In this document: piece by piece, positions 1 to 52,996 of the stretch
Numbering within the stretch: the first letter of the stretch is position 1
How the letters are laid out: every line of letters begins with the position of its first letter
Assembly (NCBI RefSeq): GCF_900095885.1
Contig: NZ_LT615367.1
Location: forward strand, 3,224,001 to 3,288,000
Reading direction: 5' to 3'
DNA from: Dickeya aquatica
GTDB lineage: Bacteria; Pseudomonadota; Gammaproteobacteria; Enterobacterales; Enterobacteriaceae
DNA length: 64,000 nucleotides
Notes under the pieces: model-generated
Databases searched by the model: none
What the model was told of the DNA's origin: nothing
The model's input: only the letters and a program-made list of their open reading frames with translations
Translations under genes and position numbers: made by a program

Positions 1-449
1 TGTGTGGTGGTCAGGCGCTGGATCTGGAAGCCGAAGGGCATCTGGTTGATCTCGCTGCGCTTGAGCGTATCCACCGCCACAAAACCGGTGCGCTTATCCG
101 TGCAGCCGTGCGGCTCGGAGCGCTGGCTGGTGGTGAGCGCGGCCGACAGGCGCTGCCTTATCTCGATAGCTATGCTAATGCCATCGGCCTGGCATTTCAG
201 GTGCAGGATGACATTCTTGATGTGGTCGGTGATAGCGCGACAACCGGTAAACGTCAGGGCGCTGACCAGCAACTCGGTAAAAGCACCTACCCGGCGCTGC
301 TGGGGCTTGAACAGGCACAAACCAAAGCCCGGGAGTTGCGCGATGACGCACTTGCGGCACTGAATGAACTGGAAGAGAGGCTGGACCACCCGGCAGCGCT
401 GACTCCGCTGCGGGCTCTGGCTGACTATGTCGTTGAACGCGATAAATAA
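1..449 (+). CDS. ispA: Farnesyl diphosphate synthase (C-terminal part)
   Basis: Only the last ~149 codons are present; the gene begins left of the window and the reading frame is in phase with position 3. IspA condenses IPP with DMAPP and GPP to give farnesyl diphosphate in the cytosol, feeding undecaprenyl phosphate and quinone synthesis. The second aspartate-rich motif, QVQDDILDVVGD, which binds the Mg-diphosphate, is visible, followed by the K..G(A)D..GKSTYP segment typical of short-chain trans-prenyl synthases. It lies 33 bases upstream of dxs on the same strand, the usual enterobacterial (xseB-)ispA-dxs operon. Confidence 0.95.
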   Translation, partial: CGGQALDLEAEGHLVDLAALERIHRHKTGALIRAAVRLGALAGGERGRQALPYLDSYANAIGLAFQVQDDILDVVGDSATTGKRQGADQQLGKSTYPALLGLEQAQTKARELRDDALAALNELEERLDHPAALTPLRALADYVVERDK

Positions 450-482
450 TTTTCATACAAAATACCGCCTGATGAGTATGCG

Positions 483-2345
483 ATGACCTTTGATATAGCG
501 AAATACCCCACGCTGGCGCTGGTGGATAACCCCGAGGAACTGCGCCTGCTGCCAAGGGACAGTCTGCCCAAATTGTGTGATGAACTGCGGCAATATCTGT
601 TGGACAGCGTCAGCCGTTCAAGCGGGCATTTTGCCTCAGGTCTGGGTACGGTCGAGCTGACCGTGGCTCTGCATTACGTTTACAACACGCCGTTTGATCA
701 TCTGGTATGGGATGTCGGCCATCAGGCTTATCCTCATAAAATCCTGACCGGGCGGCGCGATCGTATTGCCACCATTCGTCAGAAAGGGGGATTGCACCCT
801 TTTCCGTGGCGTGGCGAAAGTGAATATGACGTGTTAAGCGTGGGTCACTCTTCCACGTCTATCAGCGCCGGTATCGGTATGGCCGTTGCCGCCGAAAGAG
901 AAGGCAAAGGGCGTCGCACCGTATGTGTGATTGGCGACGGCGCGATTACCGCTGGCATGGCTTTTGAAGCGATGAACCATGCCGGTGACATCAAACCGGA
1001 CATGCTGGTCATACTCAATGACAATGAGATGTCGATTTCAGAGAATGTCGGAGCGCTGAATAACCACCTGGCACAGTTGCTTTCCGGCAAACTCTATTCC
1101 ACCTTGCGTGAAGGCGGCAAAAAGGTGCTGTCCGGCCTGCCGCCAATAAAAGAGCTGGTGAAACGCACCGAAGAACACCTTAAAGGCATGGTCGTACCCG
1201 GCACACTGTTTGAAGAACTTGGCTTTAATTATATCGGCCCGGTTGATGGGCATGATGTGCAAGCCCTGGCGCAAACGCTGAAAAACATGCGTAGCCTGAA
1301 AGGCCCGCAGTTGCTGCACATTATGACCAAGAAAGGCAAAGGCTACGCCCCTGCCGAACAAGACCCGATAAGCTGGCATGCAGTACCGAAATTTGACCCG
1401 GCCAGCGGCACGCTACCGAAAAGCAAAGAGGCACAACCCACCTACTCGGCTATTTTCGGTCAGTGGTTATCACAAACCGCAGCGGATGACCCAAAACTGA
1501 TGGCAATCACTCCGGCGATGCGCGAAGGCTCTGGCATGGTGGCGTTTTCGCGTCAGTATCCTCAGCAATATTTTGATGTAGCAATCGCCGAGCAACACGC
1601 GGTGACATTTGCCGCCGGGCTTGCCATTGGCGGATATCACCCGGTGGTTGCCATTTACTCTACGTTTTTGCAACGCGCCTACGATCAGGTGATTCATGAT
1701 GTTGCCATTCAAAATCTGCCAGTGCTGTTTGCTATCGATCGCGGCGGCATTGTCGGTGCGGATGGCCAAACGCATCAGGGCGCGTTTGACCTGTCATTTC
1801 TGCGCTGTATTCCCGGCATGGTCATCATGACACCAAGCGATGAGAATGAGTGTCGCCTGATGCTGCACACCGGCTATCACCACCGCTCCGGGCCTTGTGC
1901 CGTACGCTATCCGCGCGGCAACGTGACCGGCGTACCACTGACACCTCTGGACATTCTGCCACTGGGTAAAGGTGTGATAAAACGTCACGGGGAGAAAATC
2001 GCTATCCTTAACTTTGGCACGTTACTGCCAGAAGCCCGGCAAGCGGCTGAAGCATTACAGGCAACCCTGGTTGACATGCGCTTTGTCAAACCGCTCGATG
2101 AAGCCTTGCTGGACTCACTGGCCACCAACCATGACGCATTTATCACGTTGGAAGAAAACGCGATTATGGGCGGTGCGGGCAGCGGCGTGAATGAATATGT
2201 CATGGCAAAACGCCTGCGTGTGCCAGTACTCAACCTCGGGTTGCCTGATGAATTCATTCCTCAGGGTACGCAGGCCGAAATTCGTGCCGACCTGGCGCTG
2301 GATGCCGCCGGTATTGAACAGCGGATCCTCGACTGGCTGGCGTAA
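483..2345 (+). CDS. dxs: 1-deoxy-D-xylulose-5-phosphate synthase
   Basis: 620 aa, the same length as the E. coli enzyme. It catalyses the thiamine-diphosphate-dependent condensation of pyruvate and glyceraldehyde-3-phosphate, the first step of the MEP isoprenoid pathway. The N-terminal TPP domain shows the GDG...N pattern ([18 protein letters not shown] near residue 153). The central transketolase pyrimidine domain has [14 protein letters not shown] and [15 protein letters not shown], followed by a C-terminal transketolase domain. It directly follows ispA, so two isoprenoid steps are co-expressed. A shared terminator separates it from convergent thiL; pgpA, normally in this gap in E. coli, is not there. 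Confidence 0.98.
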
Positions 2346-2540: not shown

Positions 2541-3515
2541 TTACGCCCTAAAATGGTCAAATCCTTTCACATGGATAGTCATCGGCTGACCCTTCAAGAA
2601 AAACGCCAGTCCCTCACCTGCGGGAGCTATCTGACCGATACAATGGTAACTCGCGCCCAAATGGCCAATTGCCACTTCCAGCGCCCCCCGGTTAATCTCC
2701 GGTACGGTAAAGCACAACTCATAATCTTCGCCACCGCCGAGCGCCCATTGCATACGTTGCGCCTCTGAACTGTGGCGCAGCAAGGCATCCGAGTAGGGTA
2801 ATGCATCGAGATTAACGCGTGCGCCGCAGTCGCTGGCTTTGAGGATATGCCCAAGATCAGAGGCCAAACCATCGGAGAGATCGATAGCAGCGCTGGCCAA
2901 ATCGCGCAATGCCTGACCGTACAGTATTCGCGGCTGAGGCCGCAAATGGCGTTGCAGCAAAAAGTGACGGTCGTCATCGTTTGACACCGCCAAACCATCC
3001 TGCAATACAGCCAGCCCGGCAGCGCTGTCACCAAGCGTACCGGTAACATAAATCCAGTCACCAATACGGGCACCGCTGCGTTTTAGCGCACGCCCAGCAG
3101 GCACCAACCCCTGGATGGTCAGCGTCAGACTCAGTGGCCCACGGGTTGTATCGCCGCCGATCAACTGCATACCGTAGTAGTCAAGCTGTTCAAATAAACT
3201 GTCGCTGTATGCTGCCAGCCAATCGGCATCGACATGGGGTAACGTCAGCGCCAGCGAGACAAATGCCGGATCGGCCCCCATCGCCGCCAAATCGCTTAAA
3301 TTCACCGCCAGAGACTTATAAGCCAGAGAAGCAGGATCGATATCTGGCAAAAAATGCACGCCCGACACCAGTGTATCCGTGCTGACCGCCAGCCATTGTT
3401 TATCTGCAAGGGTGAGCAGAGCACAGTCATCGCCAATACCCAGCTCGACATCCCGCCGTGAATGCCCCGCTCGGTTGAAATAACGGGCAATCACATCAAA
3501 CTCACCTTGAGCCAT
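2541..3515 (-). CDS. thiL: Thiamine-monophosphate kinase
   Basis: 324 aa, about the length of E. coli ThiL (325). It phosphorylates thiamine monophosphate to the active cofactor thiamine diphosphate. The PurM-like N-terminus reads [10 protein letters not shown]...[13 protein letters not shown], with the metal-binding acidic residues of the family, followed by [12 protein letters not shown] and the glycine-rich [14 protein letters not shown]. It is the last gene of the minus-strand nrdR-ribD-ribH-nusB-thiL series. A terminator-like hairpin sits between nusB and thiL, so thiL may be expressed less than nusB. In E. coli pgpA overlaps the end of thiL; here it is absent. Confidence 0.97.
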
Positions 3516-3535
3516 AATATGTCCAGAAATGCGTG

Positions 3536-3566
3536 GCTAAAAAAACCAAGGCCGGTAAAACCGGCC
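3536..3566 (-). terminator. Hairpin with U-tract between nusB and thiL
   Basis: Perfect inverted repeat GGCCGG-TTTTA-CCGGCC (read on the minus strand), followed by TTGG and a seven-T run. It looks like an intrinsic terminator or attenuator inside the gene series, just before thiL. Confidence 0.65.
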
Positions 3567-3575
3567 CTGACTGAC

Positions 3576-3995
3576 TTATCTTTTACCCGGCCGCAGATGG
3601 GGTCCGGCTTTATCCAGAACCCCGTTAACAAACTTGTGGCTGTCTTCAGCACCGAATATCTTGGCCAGTTCAATCGCCTCGTTAATGGCCACCTTGTATG
3701 GCACATCCTCGCGCTTGCCAAGCTCATACACCGCCAGACGCAGGATGGCTTTCTCAACCTGCCCCAGTTCATCCAACTGACGAGACAGATAAGGTGCCAT
3801 CTGGGCATCCAGCTTTTCCGCCTGAATGGCAACACCTGCCAGCAGCTCACGGAAATAAGCGATGTCCACGCCTTTGACATCCTGCTCGCTCAGGAACTGG
3901 AGTTCAACATCGGCAATATCGTTTTTAGATAACTGCCAGGAATAAAGCGCTTGAACCGCACATTCACGAGCGCGGCGACGAGCAGCAGGTTTCAC
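3576..3995 (-). CDS. nusB: Transcription antitermination factor NusB
   Basis: 139 aa, identical in length to E. coli NusB. NusB with NusE (S10) binds boxA RNA and assembles the rRNA antitermination complex. The all-helical fold is recognisable from the N-terminal [18 protein letters not shown] and the C-terminal [14 protein letters not shown] and FVNGVLDK segments. It follows ribH by 22 bases, the conserved enterobacterial ribH-nusB pair, and is followed by a hairpin that may reduce read-through into thiL. Confidence 0.97.
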
Positions 3996-4017
3996 GGAAT
4001 ACCCCTTACTAAATAAA

Positions 4018-4491
4018 TCAGGCTGACTTGATTGAGTGTAATACGTTGATCATTTCAAGCGCGGTCAGAGCGGCTTCCGCCCCTTTATTCCCCGCTTTCG
4101 TACCGGCGCGCTCAATGGCCTGCTCAATGCTTTCTGTCGTCAGAACACCAAACGCGACAGGAATATCGCTGTTCATCGCGACATGAGACAAGCCGGAGCT
4201 GCATTCACCGGCAACAAATTCAAAATGGGCTGTACCACCCCGGATAACGGTGCCCAGCGCAATCACAGCATCATATTTCTGGCTGTTAGCCAACGTGCGC
4301 GCCGTCAGCGGCAGCTCATAAGCGCCCGGCACCCATACCACGGTGATATTTTCTTCTTTCACCTGGCCAATGCGCTTTAACGCATCCAGTGCGCCTTCCA
4401 GCAGGCTATCGTTGATGAAGTGATTGAAACGGGCAATAGCAATCGCCACACGGGCATTCGGAGCGGCAACAACACCTTCAATAATGTTCAT
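4018..4491 (-). CDS. ribH: 6,7-dimethyl-8-ribityllumazine synthase
   Basis: 157 aa (E. coli 156). It condenses 5-amino-6-ribitylaminouracil with dihydroxybutanone phosphate to lumazine, the penultimate step of riboflavin synthesis; the family forms 60-mer or pentameric particles. Visible active-site segments are [15 protein letters not shown] (substrate-ring stacking), WVPGAYELP, and the phosphate-binding [13 protein letters not shown] with its Arg, followed by [19 protein letters not shown]. It lies between ribD (153 bases upstream) and nusB (22 bases downstream), the standard rib-nus cluster. Confidence 0.97.
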
Positions 4492-4644
4492 AGCTTTCCT
4501 TTGATTGTTTTACGACCCCGCAGGGGGGCGGATTCTATCATATTCTTCTACACGCGTATCCGCTTTTGGCCCGATAACCGCGATTCGTTCGGTTCATGTC
4601 TTAAGCGCGTGCAGCACATCTCTGTGTGCAGTGCTGGCACAAGG

Positions 4645-5757
4645 TTACTGCGGCGTCATCGTTAAACGCACATCCGGGCCGACCTGACGCACATCGGCAA
4701 TCGTGAACGACGGTGCCTGTGACAAACGCTCTACCCCCGGCAATACGCACAACGGCCGGGCTGACTCACCCAATAACGTCGGTGCGAGATAAACGATAAG
4801 CTCATCGACTACCCCTGCCTGTAGTAAGGCACCAGCCAGACGCGGGCCAGCCTCGACCCAGACGGAATTGATTTGACGTTTACCCAGCACCATCATCAAC
4901 GCCACCAAATCCACGCCACCGCCATGCAGTGGTACACCCAACTGTTCCACACCCTCAGGCCAGCTCAGGTCATCCTGCTGCGGCCGTGCCAGCCAGGTTT
5001 GCCCCGGCAGATTCACCAGCCGATGCTGTGGCCCGACACGACACTGACTATCCACAACGACGCGCACCGGCTGGCGCAAGGCGCTTTCCGGGTAGAGCTG
5101 GCGCGTTTGCTCATCAAGCTCGTCCCAGCGAACCGTCAGCGAGGGATCGTCGGCCAGCACGGTAGCACTGCTCGTCAGAATGGCGGAACTCTGTGCGCGA
5201 AAACGCTGCACGTCCTGACGAGCCTGGGGAGAGGTTATCCACTGGCTTTCGCCAGAGGCCATCGCCGTGCGGCCATCAAGCGATGCACCCAGTTTAAGCT
5301 GCACATAGGGAAAACCGGTACGCATGCGTTTAAGGAAACCCCGGTTGACGAGTTCTGCCTGTGTCATCAACACGCCGTGATGCACCTCAATGCCGGCCTG
5401 TTGCAAACGATGTAATCCACGTCCGGCTACCTGCGGGTTTGGGTCTTGCATGGCAGCGACCACTCGGGTGATACCGGCGGCTATCAATGCATCGGCACAA
5501 GGTGGAGTACGTCCGTGATGGCTGCACGGCTCCAGCGTCACGTAGGCTGTTTGCCCGCGCGCGCGCTCACCGGCCATTCGCAAAGCGTGCACTTCAGCAT
5601 GCGGTTCTCCGGCCTTCTGGTGATACCCCTCCCCGACAATCTCCCCGTCATGAACAATCACACACCCTACATTCGGGTTTGGTGTTGTCGTGAAACACCC
5701 ACGGCGAGCCAGCTCCAGCGCACGAGCCATATAAAATTCATCAGACTTTATTGTCAT
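4645..5757 (-). CDS. ribD: Bifunctional pyrimidine deaminase/reductase RibD
   Basis: 370 aa (E. coli 367). It carries out two steps of riboflavin synthesis: deamination of the GTP cyclohydrolase II product, then NADPH reduction of the ribosyl side chain. The N-terminal cytidine-deaminase-like domain has the zinc motif HAEVHAL and the pair of zinc cysteines in PCSHHGRTPPC. The C-terminal reductase domain begins near QLKLGASLDGRTA and includes SSATVLADDPSLTVR. It lies 78 bases after nrdR and before ribH, as in E. coli. Confidence 0.97.
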   Translation of the reverse strand: MTIKSDEFYMARALELARRGCFTTTPNPNVGCVIVHDGEIVGEGYHQKAGEPHAEVHALRMAGERARGQTAYVTLEPCSHHGRTPPCADALIAAGITRVVAAMQDPNPQVAGRGLHRLQQAGIEVHHGVLMTQAELVNRGFLKRMRTGFPYVQLKLGASLDGRTAMASGESQWITSPQARQDVQRFRAQSSAILTSSATVLADDPSLTVRWDELDEQTRQLYPESALRQPVRVVVDSQCRVGPQHRLVNLPGQTWLARPQQDDLSWPEGVEQLGVPLHGGGVDLVALMMVLGKRQINSVWVEAGPRLAGALLQAGVVDELIVYLAPTLLGESARPLCVLPGVERLSQAPSFTIADVRQVGPDVRLTMTPQ

Positions 5758-42699: not shown

Positions 42700-43332
42700 T
42701 TAACTTGCTTTGGGTAAGTTGTCACCGCTGCCGGGTAATGTCCAGGGGATATCCGCGGTGCGTGCGCCCAGCATTTGCTGTATTTTCTGGTAAACCTCGG
42801 CCGCAGACATACCGTTATATAAGCCCTGACTATAATAACCAAACTCCGCAGTACCTGACGTCGGCAGGGCACTGGTTTGCAGGCGCGAACCATCCCAGCT
42901 TAAATCCGCAGAGGTAATACGCCTGCCGGTTAGTGCATCATAGCTCTGGCTTTCGCCATCGGGTGATTTCACAACGGAAACCAGAACGCCACCATACAAA
43001 GGAATACCGGTCATACGTAATGCACGCTCTACGGATAACTCTTTCTGCTGTTTCTCGATTTTTTCTTTTTTCAGTTGGTCATCCAGAGAGGTCGCGCGTG
43101 GATTCACCTCGCCAGAATTATTTTTATTATTATCCGACAATTGATTATTCAACGAATTATTCATGGTGCCGGATTTAAACGAGCCGGAACTGTTGCTGCC
43201 CGAGGAATTCATCCCAATCAGGTCGAGGCTGTCACCCGCGCCACCGCTGGCGCTGTAGGTTGACCCCGCGCCATAACCCGACTGGGGATAAAATGATGCT
43301 GTGTTTTGAATTTGAACGCCTGATATAGCCAT
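42700..43332 (-). CDS. Unrecognised Ser/Gly/Asn-rich protein
   Basis: 210 aa, not assigned to any family I recognise. Residues 1-75 are rich in Ser, Gly and Asn and look disordered (TYSASGGAGDSLDLIG, SSGSNSSGSFKSGTMNNSLN). Residues ~80-105 are a charged, probably helical stretch (QLKKEKIEKQQKELSVERAL). The rest, about 100 residues, is a compact domain with repeated Gly-Tyr (EFGYYSQGLYNGMSAAEVYQKIQQML). There is no signal peptide. The N-terminus (MAISGVQIQNTASFYPQ) recalls type III-secreted or flagellar axial proteins, but this is only an impression. It is a monocistronic gene with a 512-base AT-rich upstream region shared with the Sia-like operon. Confidence 0.6.
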   Translation of the reverse strand: MAISGVQIQNTASFYPQSGYGAGSTYSASGGAGDSLDLIGMNSSGSNSSGSFKSGTMNNSLNNQLSDNNKNNSGEVNPRATSLDDQLKKEKIEKQQKELSVERALRMTGIPLYGGVLVSVVKSPDGESQSYDALTGRRITSADLSWDGSRLQTSALPTSGTAEFGYYSQGLYNGMSAAEVYQKIQQMLGARTADIPWTLPGSGDNLPKAS

Positions 43333-43570: not shown

Positions 43571-43844
43571 GGAGAGCAGCACATTTAGCGCGAAGAAAAG
43601 GCAAAACGACCTGTAAAATATATCGGCCATTTTCTTTTTTCATTAATACGAAAAAAGCATAAAAACGCTCACAAAACGAGCCGGAGGGAAATATTTACTC
43701 ATCACTGTAAAGGTAACACTAACAATTTCTTAGCATTTCCTCCGCACATTAACGATATTCTTACCCCTTTATTGATTGTCATATTTTCGTCACACCCCAC
43801 TGTTAATTTGGCGCTAGTCTATTTTTCAAGAAAGACAAGCCAAA

Positions 43845-45080
43845 ATGAGCGCATTACCCCCACAGGAGCACCGGCTGCGTGTCGTTCCCTTTCCAAGCGC
43901 ACGCGATCTCTGTATCACCACGCCGGATGTTTCGCCCACAACAGACAACGCCACTGTATTGCAGCTATTTAGCCGCCATAAAGATTTGGTCAGTCTGCCT
44001 GTTGTGGAAGCCGGGAGGCCGTTTGGCTTGATTAACCGCCACAGTTTTCTGTCACAGATGGCCAGACCGTACTATCGGGAACTGTATGACAGAAAAAGCT
44101 GTATTGCTTTTATGGATAAAACGCCGCTGATTGTCGAAGCCGCCTCCTCACTCAGTGATGTTGCTGACAAAGCCGTTATCAGTGGCGATCGCTTTCTGGC
44201 TGATGGTTTTATTATTACTGAACATGGCCGCTACCTCGGCATTGGTCTGGGCATCGACCTGTTTAGGATAGTCTCCGACACGCATGTTCGCCAGCATCAG
44301 CAAATCATTCAAAGCATTGAATATGCGAGCGTTATTCAAAACGCCATGCTCAGGCCATTTCGGCAGGCGATGGCCGCGACATTACAAGACTGGTGCCTGA
44401 CATGGGAACCGCGCGACTGCGTTGGAGGAGACTGTTACGGCTTTCGCCGATATGCGCAAGGCTGGTTAATGGTTATCGCTGACTGTACCGGCCACGGTGT
44501 ACCGGGTGCATTCATGACCATTATCTTTAACTCCGCCCTGGAACAGGCGCTGGCTCAGCACCGCCCCGATGAACCGGGTCAGGTGCTGGCCGCCATTAAT
44601 CGCTATATTAAAGATACGCTGGGGCAAAAAGAGGAATACCACGCTTCTCCTTCTGCTTCCGATGATGGTTGCGATGCGCTGGTGGTATATCTGAATACGG
44701 ACACACAGACCCTCTCTTGGGCCAGTGCACGAATGATGGCTTTTCTTATTGAGGCATCCAGTGGTGAACTGTTGACACTTGATAACGATCGTATGGGCAT
44801 CGGCTACACCGATACACCTTATGACTACCGCTGGCCCAGTTATCAACGCCCTCTGCTATCACAGGATCTGTTTTTCACCACCACAGATGGCCTGCCCGAC
44901 CAGATAGGTGCCGAACGCCCGGCCAAATTTGGCAAACGACGCCTGCAAAACCTGTTGTTGCGATTCAGCGCCCTGCCCATGAACCAACTTGCCGGGCAAT
45001 TATTACAACAGCATTACGCCTGGCAAGGTTGCCAGCAACGCCGGGATGACCTGACTTTTTGGGGATTCAGGCACCCGTAA
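43845..45080 (+). CDS. siaA: SiaA-like PP2C phosphatase with CBS-like N-terminus
   Basis: 411 aa. The C-terminal half (~180-405) is a SpoIIE/RsbU-type PP2C Ser/Thr phosphatase: VGGDCYGFRRYAQGWLMVIADCTGHGVPGAFM carries the metal-binding Asp residues (written here as VGGDCYG, ADCTGHGVPGAFM), with FFTTTDGLPDQ near the end. The N-terminal ~150 residues resemble a CBS-type ligand domain (LPVVEAGRPFGLINRHSFL). There is no membrane segment, unlike Pseudomonas SiaA, which senses through a membrane-bound HAMP region. In the known pathway SiaA dephosphorylates SiaC, letting SiaC activate the cyclase. First gene of a tight four-gene operon. Confidence 0.82.
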   Translation: MSALPPQEHRLRVVPFPSARDLCITTPDVSPTTDNATVLQLFSRHKDLVSLPVVEAGRPFGLINRHSFLSQMARPYYRELYDRKSCIAFMDKTPLIVEAASSLSDVADKAVISGDRFLADGFIITEHGRYLGIGLGIDLFRIVSDTHVRQHQQIIQSIEYASVIQNAMLRPFRQAMAATLQDWCLTWEPRDCVGGDCYGFRRYAQGWLMVIADCTGHGVPGAFMTIIFNSALEQALAQHRPDEPGQVLAAINRYIKDTLGQKEEYHASPSASDDGCDALVVYLNTDTQTLSWASARMMAFLIEASSGELLTLDNDRMGIGYTDTPYDYRWPSYQRPLLSQDLFFTTTDGLPDQIGAERPAKFGKRRLQNLLLRFSALPMNQLAGQLLQQHYAWQGCQQRRDDLTFWGFRHP

Positions 45081-45104
45081 TGATGAACCAGATGAAACCA
45101 GAAC

Positions 45105-45656
45105 ATGTCCCATAGCACAGATACCGAATTTATCGATCTCTCACAGCAGCAACATATCGCTCTGTATTACGTAGGGTATTTCTCACAAAACATCGTCTGC
45201 TCACTGGCAGAAACGGTGCGATTACAACTGGAGAAACGCTGCGTACCACCAGCAATACGGCGCAGGCTGTTCTCAAGCTTTATTGAAATGGCACAGAACA
45301 TCATTCACTACTCCGCCTGCGCGCTCAATCCGGAGACGCAGAATAATGAAATTCGCCACGGGTCAGTCTGCATTGGCGTTGAAGCGGGCAAATATTTTTT
45401 GCTCAGTGCCAATCGCGTCTCTGCAACGGATATCAACACACTGCGTGGTCGCCTGGAAGTGCTGGGCACCATGACCAGTGACGAGATCCGGCTGGCCTAT
45501 AAAGCCTCCTTGCGGGAAGCGACGCCTGCATCCAGCAAAGGGGCTGATATTGGGCTACTGACCGTTGCCCGCGATGCCAGCGAACCGCTGCAATTCACCT
45601 TTCGTGACGACGCAACCACCGGGCTTGCCACGTTCTACCTGAAGGCGGTGATTTAA
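45105..45656 (+). CDS. siaB: SiaB-family protein kinase
   Basis: 183 aa. It matches the SiaB/DUF6272 family, GHKL-type kinases related to anti-sigma factor kinases such as SpoIIAB. The N-box-like helix SSFIEMAQNIIHYSA (Glu, Asn, His) is clear and the C-terminal half carries GADIGLLTVARDAS, in place of the usual ATP-lid glycines. In Pseudomonas SiaB phosphorylates SiaC and opposes SiaA. It starts 24 bases after siaA and ends two bases before siaC. Confidence 0.8.
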   Translation: MSHSTDTEFIDLSQQQHIALYYVGYFSQNIVCSLAETVRLQLEKRCVPPAIRRRLFSSFIEMAQNIIHYSACALNPETQNNEIRHGSVCIGVEAGKYFLLSANRVSATDINTLRGRLEVLGTMTSDEIRLAYKASLREATPASSKGADIGLLTVARDASEPLQFTFRDDATTGLATFYLKAVI

Positions 45657-45658
45657 TC

Positions 45659-46075
45659 ATGACAGACATAATTACAACAGATAACTTGCATATTGTCGGC
45701 ACTGCCAGTACGCCAACTGTCGATTTTCGCTTTGATACACATCAGCTTTCGCTGTCCGGTGAGTCTTACCCGGAAAACGCAGCCGCTTTTTACGGCCCGT
45801 TGATTGAACGCATTCAGCATTACCTGCGCGGCTGTTTAGGCGGCGATAATCCCCCTACCCGCATCGATGTTCATGTCTCGCTGCTCTATTTCAACAGTTC
45901 CAGCACAAAGATGTTATTCAGCTTGTTTAATCACCTTAATCAGGCCGCAGCCCAGCAACTGGCTATTACCCTGCACTGGTATTACGACCAGGACGATGAT
46001 ATCGCGCAAGAGTTTGGCCAGGAGCTGAATATCGATTTCCCGGCACTGGATTTCAGCCCGCATATTCTGGAGTAG
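45659..46075 (+). CDS. siaC: SiaC-family (DUF1987) partner-switch protein
   Basis: 138 aa, the usual size for SiaC. The fold is related to STAS anti-sigma antagonists; the central VSLLYFNSSSTKMLFSLFNHL stretch (residues ~70-90) holds the Ser/Thr patch where SiaC is phosphorylated. Unphosphorylated SiaC binds and activates the diguanylate cyclase SiaD in Pseudomonas. Its position between the kinase and the cyclase, with 2- and 4-base gaps, fits the same role here. Confidence 0.85.
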   Translation: MTDIITTDNLHIVGTASTPTVDFRFDTHQLSLSGESYPENAAAFYGPLIERIQHYLRGCLGGDNPPTRIDVHVSLLYFNSSSTKMLFSLFNHLNQAAAQQLAITLHWYYDQDDDIAQEFGQELNIDFPALDFSPHILE

Positions 46076-46079
46076 CCGT

Positions 46080-46805
46080 ATGAGCCATTATGAATTGTTC
46101 ACGCCTGAATATGACATCCTGCTCTCAATGCGTAATCTGGCAGCACAACCGGATATGCCCGCTGAGGTCTACCGGGAGAGCTTGATTATGCTGGCAGAGC
46201 ATTATCAGCGCCTGGTGCGGGAAACCCATCGCCTGATTACCCGCAGTGACCGCGCCGAGCGAGAACTTACCCGGCTGAACAACCAGTTGCATCAGTTAGC
46301 TGTCGAACTGGAGTATAAAGCTACGCATGACCCGCTGACCGATGTCTTCAACCGTAGCGCGATTATTGATTTGGTCGATCACGCACTGGAACAGGATCAG
46401 GCGGCATTGATAGTGCTGGATATCGACCATTTTAAGCAGGTCAACGATGCTTACGGCCACCCGACCGGTGATGCCGTCATCTGTGCCTTAATTGCCCGTA
46501 TCCGAGAAGTGCTCCAAGGTAAAGGCAGCATTGGCCGGGTTGGCGGTGAAGAGTTCACTATTTTACTGGATGGCCACACGCTTATGGCCGCCGTTGATGT
46601 CGCAGAACAAATTCATGCCAGTTTGAACCAGACTGTTTTGCAAACCCTGCCACACCATCCTGTCACAGCCAGTTTCGGCGTCAGCTGGGCACCGATGCAC
46701 ACCCGATTCGACACCCTCTATGGCACGGCAGACGCAGCGCTCTATCAGGCCAAACACCAAGGGCGCAACCGGGTGGAGTACATACCGATTGATACAGCCA
46801 GCTAG
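46080..46805 (+). CDS. siaD: SiaD-like diguanylate cyclase
   Basis: 241 aa. An N-terminal helical segment (~1-85, ending in a coiled coil around RAERELTRLNNQLHQLAVELE) precedes one GGDEF domain with KATHDPLTDVFNR, VLDIDHFKQVNDAYGHPTGD and the active-site RVGGEEF. The inhibitory RxxD site that normally precedes the signature is absent, so product feedback is probably missing. Makes c-di-GMP, expected to be switched on by dephosphorylated SiaC binding to the helical region. Last gene of the Sia-like operon. Confidence 0.88.
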   Translation: MSHYELFTPEYDILLSMRNLAAQPDMPAEVYRESLIMLAEHYQRLVRETHRLITRSDRAERELTRLNNQLHQLAVELEYKATHDPLTDVFNRSAIIDLVDHALEQDQAALIVLDIDHFKQVNDAYGHPTGDAVICALIARIREVLQGKGSIGRVGGEEFTILLDGHTLMAAVDVAEQIHASLNQTVLQTLPHHPVTASFGVSWAPMHTRFDTLYGTADAALYQAKHQGRNRVEYIPIDTAS

Positions 46806-49178: not shown

Positions 49179-50615
49179 TTAATTTGTGCGGGCATGGGAA
49201 TCGAGCAATTTACGGTCGATTTTGCCGTTAGGATTCAGCGGCAACGCCTCTTTAATGATAATCTGCGACGGCACCATGTAGTGAGGAATCACTTTCGAAA
49301 GTGAGGTTTTAATCGTTTCAGGGGCTAAGTCCGTGACGCAGAAAGCCGCAAGACGCAAAACACCGCCACCGGATTTCATCAGCGGCAGGACAACGGCTTC
49401 ATTGATGCCGTGCATCGCCAGCAGGCGATTTTCAATCTCGTTGATTTCGATGCGATAGCCATTGAGCTTGATCTGGCTGTCATTGCGCCCCTGGCAATAA
49501 ATAAGCGGCCCTATCTCGTAGCCAAGGTCGCCTGTTCTGTAGCCGCGGTAGGCCTGCGTTTCCCGGTGCAGTAATTTTTCCGCGTTCTCCTGCGTCAGAC
49601 CGAGGTAGCCACGCATCACATTCTTACCCCAGATAATCAGCTCGCCTTCTGCCGTAATTTCCATGCTGGAATCCGGCATCATGGTGCCGACCGGCAGCAC
49701 ATCATTTTCACTGTTCAGGATATCGTCGGTGATTTCGATGACGGTGGTCGCAATCGTTGCTTCCGTCGGGCCGTAAGAGTTCAGAATTTTGGCATGCGGG
49801 AAACGGCGACGCAGCTGTTTCACCAGCGCCTTGTTTAACACCTCGCCAATGAAGATAAAGACATTGAGCGCCGGTAAATATTCACTGTTGAACTGCGGGG
49901 AAAGCAAACGCTGGTAAGCAAAAGAAGGCGTGGAAACCCAAACGGAAACGTCATTGGTTTTCAGGCGATCCAGCCAGTTTTCTGCCGCGATATCCTCTTT
50001 GGCATTCAGCACGATATGCCCGCCGGTTGCCAGATTAGCCAGCAGTGGAATCAGGGAAAGATCAAAGCTGAATACCGCATGATTCATCAGCACTGGCACG
50101 TCGGGCAGCGAAAAATCCTGACGTACCCACTTCATGAAATGCCACAGGCTTTCGCGCCCGATCTGTACGCCTTTCGGTTTTCCGGTGCTGCCAGAGGTGA
50201 ACATGATATAAGCGAGATCTTGTTCAGCCAGCACCTGCCCCGACTCCGCGGTTGCAATGAACTGCCTGGTTGCCACATCGTAATAGTAAGGCGCATTGGC
50301 TAACTGGCAGATCTCTTTGAGCCGCTCCTGAGGGTAGATGCAGTCCACCGGAATATACGGGATGTTATGCAGCAGGCAGCTATAGATAGCCACCGCAAAC
50401 TCAGCCTGCTGATGTCCGTATAAAACCACGGGAGTTCCCGCAGGTTGCTGGCAATGCTGGTAGCGCTGCGACCAGTCTGTCACAGCTACAGAGAGCTGCT
50501 GCCAGGTAAGGGCCTCATCACTACCGCTAATCGCCAACTGATGTGGAGAAGCAGGTTCGATTAACGCTGCATTCAGGAAATCCTGAAGTTCGTAAAGTTC
50601 GGATTGAAGGTTCAT
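49179..50615 (-). CDS. dltA: D-alanine--D-alanyl carrier protein ligase DltA
   Basis: 478 aa, a stand-alone adenylation enzyme slightly shorter than Bacillus DltA (503). It activates D-alanine with ATP and loads it on DltC. Core motifs are YIMFTSGSTGKPKGVQIG (P-loop), SYGPTEATIATTV, YRTGDLGYEIGPLIYCQGR, and the C-terminal catalytic Lys in LNPNGKIDRKLL. The start overlaps the dltB stop by four bases. Context (dltD, dltX, dltB, dltC) settles the specificity better than the adenylation code alone. Confidence 0.92.
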   Translation of the reverse strand: MNLQSELYELQDFLNAALIEPASPHQLAISGSDEALTWQQLSVAVTDWSQRYQHCQQPAGTPVVLYGHQQAEFAVAIYSCLLHNIPYIPVDCIYPQERLKEICQLANAPYYYDVATRQFIATAESGQVLAEQDLAYIMFTSGSTGKPKGVQIGRESLWHFMKWVRQDFSLPDVPVLMNHAVFSFDLSLIPLLANLATGGHIVLNAKEDIAAENWLDRLKTNDVSVWVSTPSFAYQRLLSPQFNSEYLPALNVFIFIGEVLNKALVKQLRRRFPHAKILNSYGPTEATIATTVIEITDDILNSENDVLPVGTMMPDSSMEITAEGELIIWGKNVMRGYLGLTQENAEKLLHRETQAYRGYRTGDLGYEIGPLIYCQGRNDSQIKLNGYRIEINEIENRLLAMHGINEAVVLPLMKSGGGVLRLAAFCVTDLAPETIKTSLSKVIPHYMVPSQIIIKEALPLNPNGKIDRKLLDSHARTN

Positions 50616-51733
50616 AGAGGTGACATTCCGCTAAAAATGTAGAGGGAGGCCGAGGCGCTTGCCAGCGTCAAAACTCGTCCCAAAAACACAATAACCGGAT
50701 AATGTAGCCAGTTACCGAACGTCTGACTGCGTTTGGCTGACCACTGTAACATATTGTGAGCAACAGAAATGACGCCAAACAGCGCGCCGCTGATGAGGTA
50801 ATGTTGTTCTAATCCGTTCCATGCCCCCATACAAAACAGTGTGCAGAAGATACCGATGTTCTGCGCCAGCGTTTTGTTCTGGCGGAAAAAATCCAGCTTC
50901 ATCAGATTCATATAAATCGGCATAAAAACTACGTCCCTCAGCCATTCAGACAGGCTGATGTGGAAACGTCGCCAAAAATCCTGCGGGTTTTTAGCCAGAA
51001 TAGGCATATTGAAGTTCGCCGGAATCGTCAGGCCAAATAAACGACCGGCTCCAATCGCCATATTACTGTAACCCGCAAAGTCAAAGTAAAGATAAGCGCT
51101 ATAGGCCAGTGACATCACCACCCCGACACTGAACGTAAACGGACGATGGCTCCAGGACTGAATCACCAGGCTGTCTATCAGCATGGCAAATAAGAATTTC
51201 TGGATAATACCAATAAAAATTTGCTCCATCGCCGGTAAAAACTGCTCACGGCTGATAGTAAAGGCTTTCTTATTAATATCATTGATCCATGCGCGCCAGC
51301 GATACATCGGGCCAGCCTGAATAATAAACGGCATAAAGAGATAGCAGAAATAATGCAGGAAATTTCGGCCATCTTTTTTGGTTCGGTAAAGCAGTACATC
51401 AACGGCGCGAAAGGTCATAAAAGAGAGACCAATCATCCCCCAGTGATTATTGAGATGTAGTTTCACCAAAAACAGTGGCAGCAGCGTCAGACTTACCGCC
51501 TGCCAGGTTTTCAGCCAGCCTTTCTCTTTTAATGAGACAAGAATATAAAAACTCAGGAAAACAGCTACGGGTACAATATAGTCACCCTGGAAAATATATC
51601 CCCAGCCTAATGCAACCAGCACGGAAATAGCAGATAAATAAGTCAGCCGGTAACCCAATACCCGATTAACCAGCGCAAACAGTAACGCTGATAAAAACAG
51701 AAAGAAAAAGAATGTTCCTGAGCCGTACATCAT
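50612..51733 (-). CDS. dltB: D-alanyl transfer membrane protein DltB (MBOAT)
   Basis: 373 aa, about ten membrane helices; an MBOAT acyltransferase that moves D-alanine from DltC across the membrane. Signature segments are YFDFAGYSNMAIGAGRLFG, NPQDFWRRFHISLSEWLRDVVF and the likely catalytic His in WNGLEQHYLISGALFG. It starts seven bases after dltX and its stop overlaps dltA by four bases. Confidence 0.92.
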   Translation of the reverse strand: MMYGSGTFFFFLFLSALLFALVNRVLGYRLTYLSAISVLVALGWGYIFQGDYIVPVAVFLSFYILVSLKEKGWLKTWQAVSLTLLPLFLVKLHLNNHWGMIGLSFMTFRAVDVLLYRTKKDGRNFLHYFCYLFMPFIIQAGPMYRWRAWINDINKKAFTISREQFLPAMEQIFIGIIQKFLFAMLIDSLVIQSWSHRPFTFSVGVVMSLAYSAYLYFDFAGYSNMAIGAGRLFGLTIPANFNMPILAKNPQDFWRRFHISLSEWLRDVVFMPIYMNLMKLDFFRQNKTLAQNIGIFCTLFCMGAWNGLEQHYLISGALFGVISVAHNMLQWSAKRSQTFGNWLHYPVIVFLGRVLTLASASASLYIFSGMSPL

Positions 51734-51740
51734 TCACCTG

Positions 51741-51860
51741 TCAGAATTTTTGATATTCAAAATGCGCTTTTAAACTCATGCTGTCATCAACAGAAGTCCA
51801 CGCAACGATGGTGATCGCCAGAAAAAGATAAAGAAAGAAAAGGCGAATAGCGTGTTTCAT
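51741..51860 (-). CDS. dltX: DltX small membrane protein
   Basis: 39 aa. One membrane helix (residues ~5-21, IRLFFLYLFLAITIVAW) and the C-terminal HFEYQKF ending, matching the FxYxxF-type tail of DltX proteins of Gram-positive dlt operons. That tail has been proposed to pass D-alanine from DltB to the acceptor. Its ATG overlaps the dltD stop by four bases (ATGA) and it ends seven bases before dltB, so it is part of the operon although shorter than the usual gene-calling limit. Confidence 0.85.
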   Translation of the reverse strand: MKHAIRLFFLYLFLAITIVAWTSVDDSMSLKAHFEYQKF

Positions 51861-52996
51861 CGTTTAAAACTCTCAGCAATAAAACGGTTCATCGCAACCC
51901 ATGCCAGCTCAGTGGGATGCAGGCTATCCCAGTTCCAGCCATTCTGATAGGGCTGCGCATACATATCAAAATAGGGCACCTGATTTTCTTCCAGAACAGC
52001 CGTAATCTGACGATCGACGGGCCAGAACACATCAGTATTTTTAATCGACCAAGGGTTAATTGCATCGATAATGACCACGAACTGTACGTTGCGTTCTTTC
52101 AGAAGCTTGACCGTCGCCTTGAATGCCTGCATTTGCTTCTTGGCGGGTGGTTCGAGCCACTCATCTTGTGTCGGATCGCTTTCATAAACAGACTTATCCA
52201 TCCATAACGTCTGGGCACTTTGCTGACGGGGCCGATTCAGCTCACGGGCATGCTCCAACGCTTTGTCCCAGTCTGGAGCCGGGTAAGCCGTTAGCTGAGG
52301 TGGCCACGGTTGGGCAGGTTGAGGGGCAAACTGTAGCCATGCCAGCCAGTCGTTTTTTATCATTTCGCAGAAAATCGCGAACTGATAACTCACTTCCTGC
52401 CAGATAATTGGCAAACGCCAACCGTAAATGCTCATTTGGTTGAAGGTTAAATGGCTTATCTCGTCTTCATCGATATGGCGTAAATAATCAACCAGGAAAG
52501 GGCGCGCCTGCTCATCTTCCATCAGCGGATTAAAAACAGGGGCCGGGAAGTTGTCAGCGAAAATCGCCGGGGGGATACCTTTTGAATAAAAGCTATCAGG
52601 AGCCAGCAACAAAACGACCTTACTGTTAGCGTTGAGGTCATTTTTAAAACGCGATAACAGTAAGAAATGAGTGATATTATCAATATAACTATCACCATAG
52701 GCAACAACCGGCCGATTTAACTGGTTATTAAAGTAATTATATAGCGCGTAATATTCATCTTCAGATGTAGAGATCTCTGAAGCCCCAAGCAGAAAAATGG
52801 CATTTCCCTGTAACGCATGGGAGATAGTGGCTATTTTTTCTTTCTGCTCTTTTGGTGTTCCTTCCATGGTTCTAATCAATGGCTGGAATTTCAGGGCCGG
52901 ATCAACGCTTGTCACCAACGGGGGAACACAGAGCAACAGGACGGCCAGTGTGGCCATCATGATATGCAGGCAGAGAGTATTTTTGATTTTTCTCAT
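51857..52996 (-). CDS. dltD: D-alanyl esterase/transfer protein DltD
   Basis: 379 aa. An N-terminal membrane anchor (~residues 8-30, LCLHIMMATLAVLLLCVPPL) is followed by a periplasmic SGNH-like domain: catalytic Ser in LLGASEIS and the Asp/His pair in WDSLHPTELAW. DltD acts outside the membrane with DltX and DltB. First gene of the dltD-X-B-A-C operon. The start has only a weak ribosome-binding site, so the exact N-terminus is not certain. Confidence 0.9.
   Translation of the reverse strand: MRKIKNTLCLHIMMATLAVLLLCVPPLVTSVDPALKFQPLIRTMEGTPKEQKEKIATISHALQGNAIFLLGASEISTSEDEYYALYNYFNNQLNRPVVAYGDSYIDNITHFLLLSRFKNDLNANSKVVLLLAPDSFYSKGIPPAIFADNFPAPVFNPLMEDEQARPFLVDYLRHIDEDEISHLTFNQMSIYGWRLPIIWQEVSYQFAIFCEMIKNDWLAWLQFAPQPAQPWPPQLTAYPAPDWDKALEHARELNRPRQQSAQTLWMDKSVYESDPTQDEWLEPPAKKQMQAFKATVKLLKERNVQFVVIIDAINPWSIKNTDVFWPVDRQITAVLEENQVPYFDMYAQPYQNGWNWDSLHPTELAWVAMNRFIAESFKR

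Follow-up and report, generated by a model that had tools for sequence, protein, structure and literature searches.

The SiaABCD module of Pseudomonas aeruginosa is the closest described counterpart of the locus analyzed here; publications on it and on the other systems mentioned below are cited for the portions of their text that were available. In P. aeruginosa, the kinase SiaB phosphorylates SiaC, the phosphatase SiaA removes the phosphate and unphosphorylated SiaC activates the cyclase SiaD (PMC7647112; PMC8457831). SiaA spans the membrane in two regions, contains a HAMP domain (PMC7647112) and has been reported to sense membrane perturbation (PMC12834913). SiaD carries two stalk motifs and a working inhibitory site (I-site), through which c-di-GMP inhibits the enzyme unless relieved by the R201A substitution, and the complex consists of two SiaD and four SiaC molecules, with S82-D83-R84 of SiaD contacting SiaC in structure 7E6G (PMC8457831). 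More generally, RsbU/SpoIIE-type PPM phosphatases resemble SiaA in having an N-terminal sensor, a helix and a phosphatase acting on a STAS-like partner; the sensors named for them are PAS, receiver, GAF, HAMP and RsbU-N, coiled-coil linkers carry the sensor signals, and helix-borne signalling to the phosphatase dimer has been put forward as a general model (PMC12143880). A 2006 survey counts CBS among the sensors and PP2C among the outputs joined by signalling helices, and its available text names no CBS-PP2C protein (PMC1592074). Likewise, the term CBS is absent from the text of PMC12143880 and from the main text of a survey, published in 2025, of the domain architectures of bacterial PP2C proteins (PMC12088040).

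The window, i.e., the whole stretch of 64,000 nucleotides from Dickeya aquatica that was analyzed (contig NZ_LT615367.1, positions 3,224,001 to 3,288,000), carries four consecutive genes related to this module:

siaA-like gene: 43845..45080, forward strand, 411 aa, soluble CBS pair plus SpoIIE/PP2C phosphatase
siaB-like kinase gene: 45105..45656, forward strand, 183 aa, 187.2 bits with NF038262 (cut-off 85)
siaC-like gene (PF09345): 45659..46075, forward strand, 138 aa, predicted phosphosite S80
siaD-like cyclase gene: 46080..46805, forward strand, 241 aa, one stalk motif, GGEEF, no RxxD

The intergenic gaps are 24, 2 and 4 bases. Pfam analysis yielded 72.6 bits for SpoIIE and 26.4 bits for CBS (cut-off 24) in SiaA, 121.5 bits for DUF6272 in SiaB, 124.8 bits for the SiaC family (gathering cut-off 24.5) and 126.4 bits for GGDEF in SiaD; chance or mis-annotation of the four genes was ruled out on account of scores far above cut-off. 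In sequence searches of the PDB, the best match of SiaA was 6k4e (P. aeruginosa SiaA-PP2C), those of SiaB and SiaC were chains A and C of 6kko, respectively, and 7e6g (SiaD) ranked fifth among the matches of SiaD. ORFs, Pfam, NCBIfam (NF038262 being its SiaB subfamily) and PDB matches agree on the SiaABCD-like module, four genes in order, that the preliminary description had recognized, and the SiaB and SiaC profile matches on which that proposal hinged were obtained. The P. aeruginosa NCBIfam equivalog cut-offs were reached by none of the four proteins (SiaA 161.6 against 700, SiaB 82 against 225, SiaC 79.2 against 150, SiaD 142.9 against 290), and the SiaA equivalog model aligns with residues 149-409 only. 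Shared with P. aeruginosa are, besides the gene order, the SpoIIE/PP2C phosphatase, the SiaB-family kinase, the SiaC-family phosphoprotein and a GGDEF cyclase whose stalk motif contains S-D-R. A single SiaC match was found in the whole 4.5-Mb single-contig genome, which leaves the siaABCD set without another candidate partner.

Related loci were collected in a first set of 91, comprising the best 80 of 293 SiaC relatives in genome contigs and 11 from related genomes, with the own-genome loci L001 and L002 excluded from counts. The order A-B-C-D on one strand was conserved in all 91, and 89 carry a CBS-type SiaA (of the other two, L013 belongs to the membrane type and the SiaA frame of L023 is broken), a proportion that is no census, as the loci were chosen by similarity to the window. 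Named loci among the best 80 of 293 belong to Dickeya, Prodigiosinella, Pectobacterium, Brenneria, Erwinia and Rahnella, as well as to Janthinobacterium, Duganella, Paraburkholderia, Bordetella, Variovorax, Rhodanobacter, Dyella and Pseudomonas, while Musicola, Lonsdalea, Pantoea, Kluyvera and Kosakonia matched at the SiaA protein level only. The earlier assignment of the variant to a plant pathogen thus proved too narrow, since many of these genera, e.g., Janthinobacterium, Duganella, Variovorax and Rhodanobacter, are not plant pathogens. Among named SiaA proteins, the one from Dickeya lacustris is closest (87%), and most named relatives are annotated just as "SpoIIE family protein phosphatase" or "protein-serine/threonine phosphatase".

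Residues E61 and N65 of SiaB are invariant in the 91 loci, and E61 aligns, if a one-residue chain offset is assumed, with the Glu predicted to be catalytic in P. aeruginosa (PMC7647112). In SiaC, N79-S80-S81 aligns with N67-T68-S69 of P. aeruginosa, in which the role of T68 has been described (PMC7647112; PMC8457831). S80 is the predicted phosphosite, and Ser occupies this position in 90/91 loci and Thr in one. Although P. aeruginosa has Thr at this place, the exchange was rejected as a mark of the CBS branch, many membrane-type loci also having Ser.

The main departure from P. aeruginosa concerns SiaA, which can be divided into three parts:

CBS pair: 43896..44249, forward strand, approximately residues 18-135, CBS1 around 35-72 and CBS2 around 96-134
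one long helix from CBS2 into the phosphatase: 44250..44381, forward strand, residues 136-179, from the secondary structure of the full model
PP2C catalytic domain: 44382..45077, forward strand, residues 180-411, from conservation, model and fold search

No membrane helix was detected in SiaA by Kyte-Doolittle hydropathy, the highest 19-residue mean being 1.29; the protein is soluble, as proposed at the outset, in contrast to its membrane-bound P. aeruginosa counterpart. The CBS-like start noted from the letters alone turned out to be a full CBS pair: in addition to the Pfam score above cut-off, two predicted models and the fold searches show the CBS fold, with two CBS folds predicted in the protein. 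The fold list for whole SiaA covered the phosphatase only, and the CBS part was therefore folded alone. The predicted helix has a pLDDT of about 68-79 over residues 141-170 in the full model. The invariant columns of the PP2C domain include D196, D213, D348, D401 and D402, which we take to be metal-site residues.

We regard it as likely that the locus encodes a partner switch of the SiaABCD type that belongs to a separate CBS branch and whose phosphatase is under intracellular control. By analogy with P. aeruginosa, SiaB would phosphorylate SiaC on Ser80 and SiaA would strip the phosphate, while unphosphorylated SiaC would grip the SiaD stalk, giving an active SiaD dimer that makes the biofilm messenger c-di-GMP. 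The CBS pair of SiaA would bind a soluble ligand or partner, and the resulting change would travel to the PP2C dimer through the continuous helix 136-179, which may thus have a signal-transmitting role.

As to the ligand, the usual nucleotide-binding residue of CBS domains is the Asp of the motif G-h-h-S/T-x-x-D. In the window, Ser67 stands at this place in CBS1 and Asp138 in CBS2, and among the relatives the canonical Asp was found in 0/88 readable sequences for CBS1 and 36/89 for CBS2. Several of the nearest solved CBS pairs in the fold searches hold nucleotides, and the fold neighbors include pairs solved with c-di-AMP or 3'3'-cGAMP. The adenine-nucleotide ligand favored by the preliminary description is accordingly possible from the fold, but with the Asp missing from CBS1 and not conserved in CBS2, such a ligand can be suggested tentatively at best. 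The same pattern of Asp residues could mean that the CBS pair is structural only, a dimerization clamp on an always active SiaA, with the switch set by operon expression and by SiaB together with the ATP supply. We consider this rather unlikely, since conservation of the N-terminal part (mean column identity of 58%, from 34 sequences) is close to that of the whole protein (60%, from 47 full-length sequences, the two samples being different), and since the N-terminal part contains 26 invariant columns, including DGF and most of the KSCIAFMD stretch. The CBS pair might also be a docking surface for a protein partner instead of a small-molecule sensor; DarB, which is among the fold neighbors, has also been solved bound to Rel (8acu), and RsbU is activated by a protein partner (PMC12143880), but in the operon of the window, gaps of 24, 2 and 4 bases leave no space for a further gene among the four, and in our opinion docking is unlikely.

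Returning to the proposed CBS-controlled switch, its output end is also modified. In SiaD of the window, the stalk motif occupies residues 56-60 and GGEEF residues 155-159. The S-D-R triad of the stalk stands where S82-D83-R84 contact SiaC in 7E6G and is invariant in 91/91 loci. Stalk contacts that were seen by eye to have changed relative to P. aeruginosa are Y85 to A, Q86 to E, R80 to T and I81 to R; these changes, like the equivalog scores below cut-off, weigh against the proposed switch. The pattern S-D-x-x-Q/E occurs once in the window SiaD, unlike the two motifs of P. aeruginosa, and a 2:2 SiaC-SiaD complex is thus predicted. One copy was also found in 84/86 readable SiaD of the first set (two in L060 and L074) and in 10/11 CBS-type operons of the broader sample presented below (none by this pattern in L175). 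However, a single motif does not mark the CBS branch, given that nine of the 16 membrane-type operons also have one, the other seven (L112, L118, L119, L129, L131, L134, L157) having two. The claim of a cyclase without an inhibitory site was borne out, as RxxD is absent before GGEEF in the window SiaD and in 86/86 readable SiaD of the first set, five more ending before GGEEF. Because there is no primary product-inhibition site, the output of SiaD would be set by SiaC occupancy and not by feedback on the enzyme. That SiaC of the CBS branch leaves SiaD alone, the latter being an independent constitutive cyclase beside it, could be argued from the single stalk motif diverged from that of P. aeruginosa, but is very improbable given that SiaD follows SiaC in 91/91 loci, that the triad is invariant and that the genome holds one SiaC match. 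A phage search for SiaD returned 117 records, all under 60% identity.

A broader sample was used for comparison with membrane-type operons. SiaC (PF09345) was found in 10/369 genomes drawn from the class and 67/398 drawn from the phylum, the own genome being counted in each. From these draws, 79 of 92 SiaC places were taken (the 13 left out were mostly within 4 kb of a contig start or weak) and, together with G057 from related genomes, gave 80 loci, 53 of which were dropped because they lacked, in the vicinity and on the strand of SiaC, a phosphatase and a GGDEF gene scoring over 100 bits. The remaining 27 loci, with phosphatase, SiaC and strong GGDEF on one strand, comprise 11 CBS-type and 16 membrane-type operons; the CBS profile used for typing SiaA was rebuilt without L013, L023 and L049, and L176 is the same locus as L013. 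RxxD was present in 0/11 CBS-type against 14/16 membrane-type operons (exceptions L119 and L173). A SiaB+SiaC tree was built from 44 rows, i.e., the window, the 27 loci and 16 rows hand-picked from the 91 of the first set, two of them identical to broader-sample rows. All 28 CBS rows fell on one side of a branch with 100/100 support, in a tree whose warnings are the long rows L175, L120 and L173 and long branches that meet. On this tree the CBS input changes once and the I-site three times, once at the CBS branch and twice for L119 and L173. CBS input and I-site absence therefore map to one branch and represent one event rather than a repeated association; Fisher's p = 6e-6 is not independent evidence, the tree giving one independent pair, and the tree, being unrooted, does not distinguish gain from loss. 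The 91 related loci and the tree rule out an oddity of one genome; judged from sequence, CBS-type SiaABCD forms a branch of the family that occurs widely.

EAL-CBS-GGDEF proteins have a CBS pair whose sequence is of the kind present in SiaA (28-36% identity in the four proteins compared), with EAL, CBS and GGDEF all over the Pfam cut-off in 4/4; Bordetella DdpB (BB2957) is such a protein (PMC12805831). There, the pair lies between c-di-GMP enzyme domains, whereas in SiaA it is placed on a phosphatase. The 10-kb locus L175 (G377) encodes an EAL-CBS-GGDEF protein at 28-1794 (+) along with a siaABCD operon of the CBS type, a possible clue to the origin of the CBS pair. It is conceivable, if doubtful, that the brake has moved, such that a CBS pair of the EAL-CBS-GGDEF kind on the phosphatase responds to a nucleotide, perhaps a cyclic dinucleotide or c-di-GMP itself, and feedback reaches the cyclase via SiaC phosphorylation and not through its own I-site.

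Other arrangements were also encountered. In L165 (G597), a CBS-type phosphatase with SiaB and SiaC frames occupies 2921-5369 (+), and no strong GGDEF gene was found nearby; the phosphatase scored 121.6 bits with the purpose-built CBS profile and below the Pfam CBS cut-off, the SiaC site reads YINSAS, and gene fusion was dropped as an interpretation, the long frames overlapping one another. SiaB-SiaC pairs without a strong GGDEF gene nearby, e.g., in L107, L124, L128, L130 and L150, adjoin proteins of 676-712 aa that are only weakly SiaD-like, which suggests other outputs for SiaC. In 12 first-set loci (L049, L053, L054, L059, L066, L071, L073, L075, L076, L078, L084, L092), a further frame of 605-1009 aa with a weak SiaD match lies downstream of siaD, beginning close to the end of siaD or overlapping it; L075 7189-9258, which was scanned as the single example, encodes a GGDEF-EAL protein. 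Two features were located upstream of siaA in the window:

strongly conserved Dickeya upstream block: 43614..43681, no strand, from 7 aligned sequences that include near-copies
sigma-28-like site: 43645-43620, reverse strand, within the most conserved upstream block and pointing away from siaA

The site was called with what we take to be the sigma-28 consensus, and its target would be a divergent gene (42700-43332, reverse strand) for a 210-aa Gly/Ser-rich protein. This protein has no Pfam match over cut-off and matches in 13 loci, namely those of the own genome, Dickeya oryzae, D. undicola, Prodigiosinella and nine other genomes of the same genus or family. The number of sigma-70-like sites was one, against 4.3 in shuffles, and the Rfam search gave no match. 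Elsewhere in the window (49179-52996, reverse strand), an AMP-binding adenylation enzyme, a protein that appears MBOAT-like by eye (no Pfam match) and a DltD-family protein form a Dlt-like cluster.

Concerning the role in Dickeya, 14 GGDEF places were counted in the genome, among which the SiaD frame is the shortest (258 aa; next 370). W909_15410 of D. zeae EC1 has been described as the sole GGDEF protein of that strain with a single domain, and deleting it cut protease by 28.93% (PMC5113947); its domain content makes it the likely SiaD orthologue. A later study of EC1 ascribes the main effect on c-di-GMP and motility to W909_14945, and the available text does not mention 15410 (PMC7733949). 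Given the small effect of the one and the main effect of the other, the contribution of the siaABCD module in culture is probably small or limited to certain conditions, and the small effect reported for the likely orthologue counts against the CBS-controlled switch that we favor.

Our literature searches, in which longer result lists were covered in part, retrieved neither a description of a CBS-type SiaA nor an experiment on one. To that extent the variant appears to be new within the known SiaABCD family, while the exchange of sensors and outputs across signalling helices has already been proposed in general terms (PMC1592074; PMC12143880). A cytosolic CBS sensor would wire the same c-di-GMP output to the internal state of the cell in Enterobacterales and Burkholderiales-type relatives. 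The CBS branch makes it possible to test directly if a PP2C partner switch can be driven by a CBS pair and, in addition, offers a natural experiment on life without product inhibition of the cyclase.
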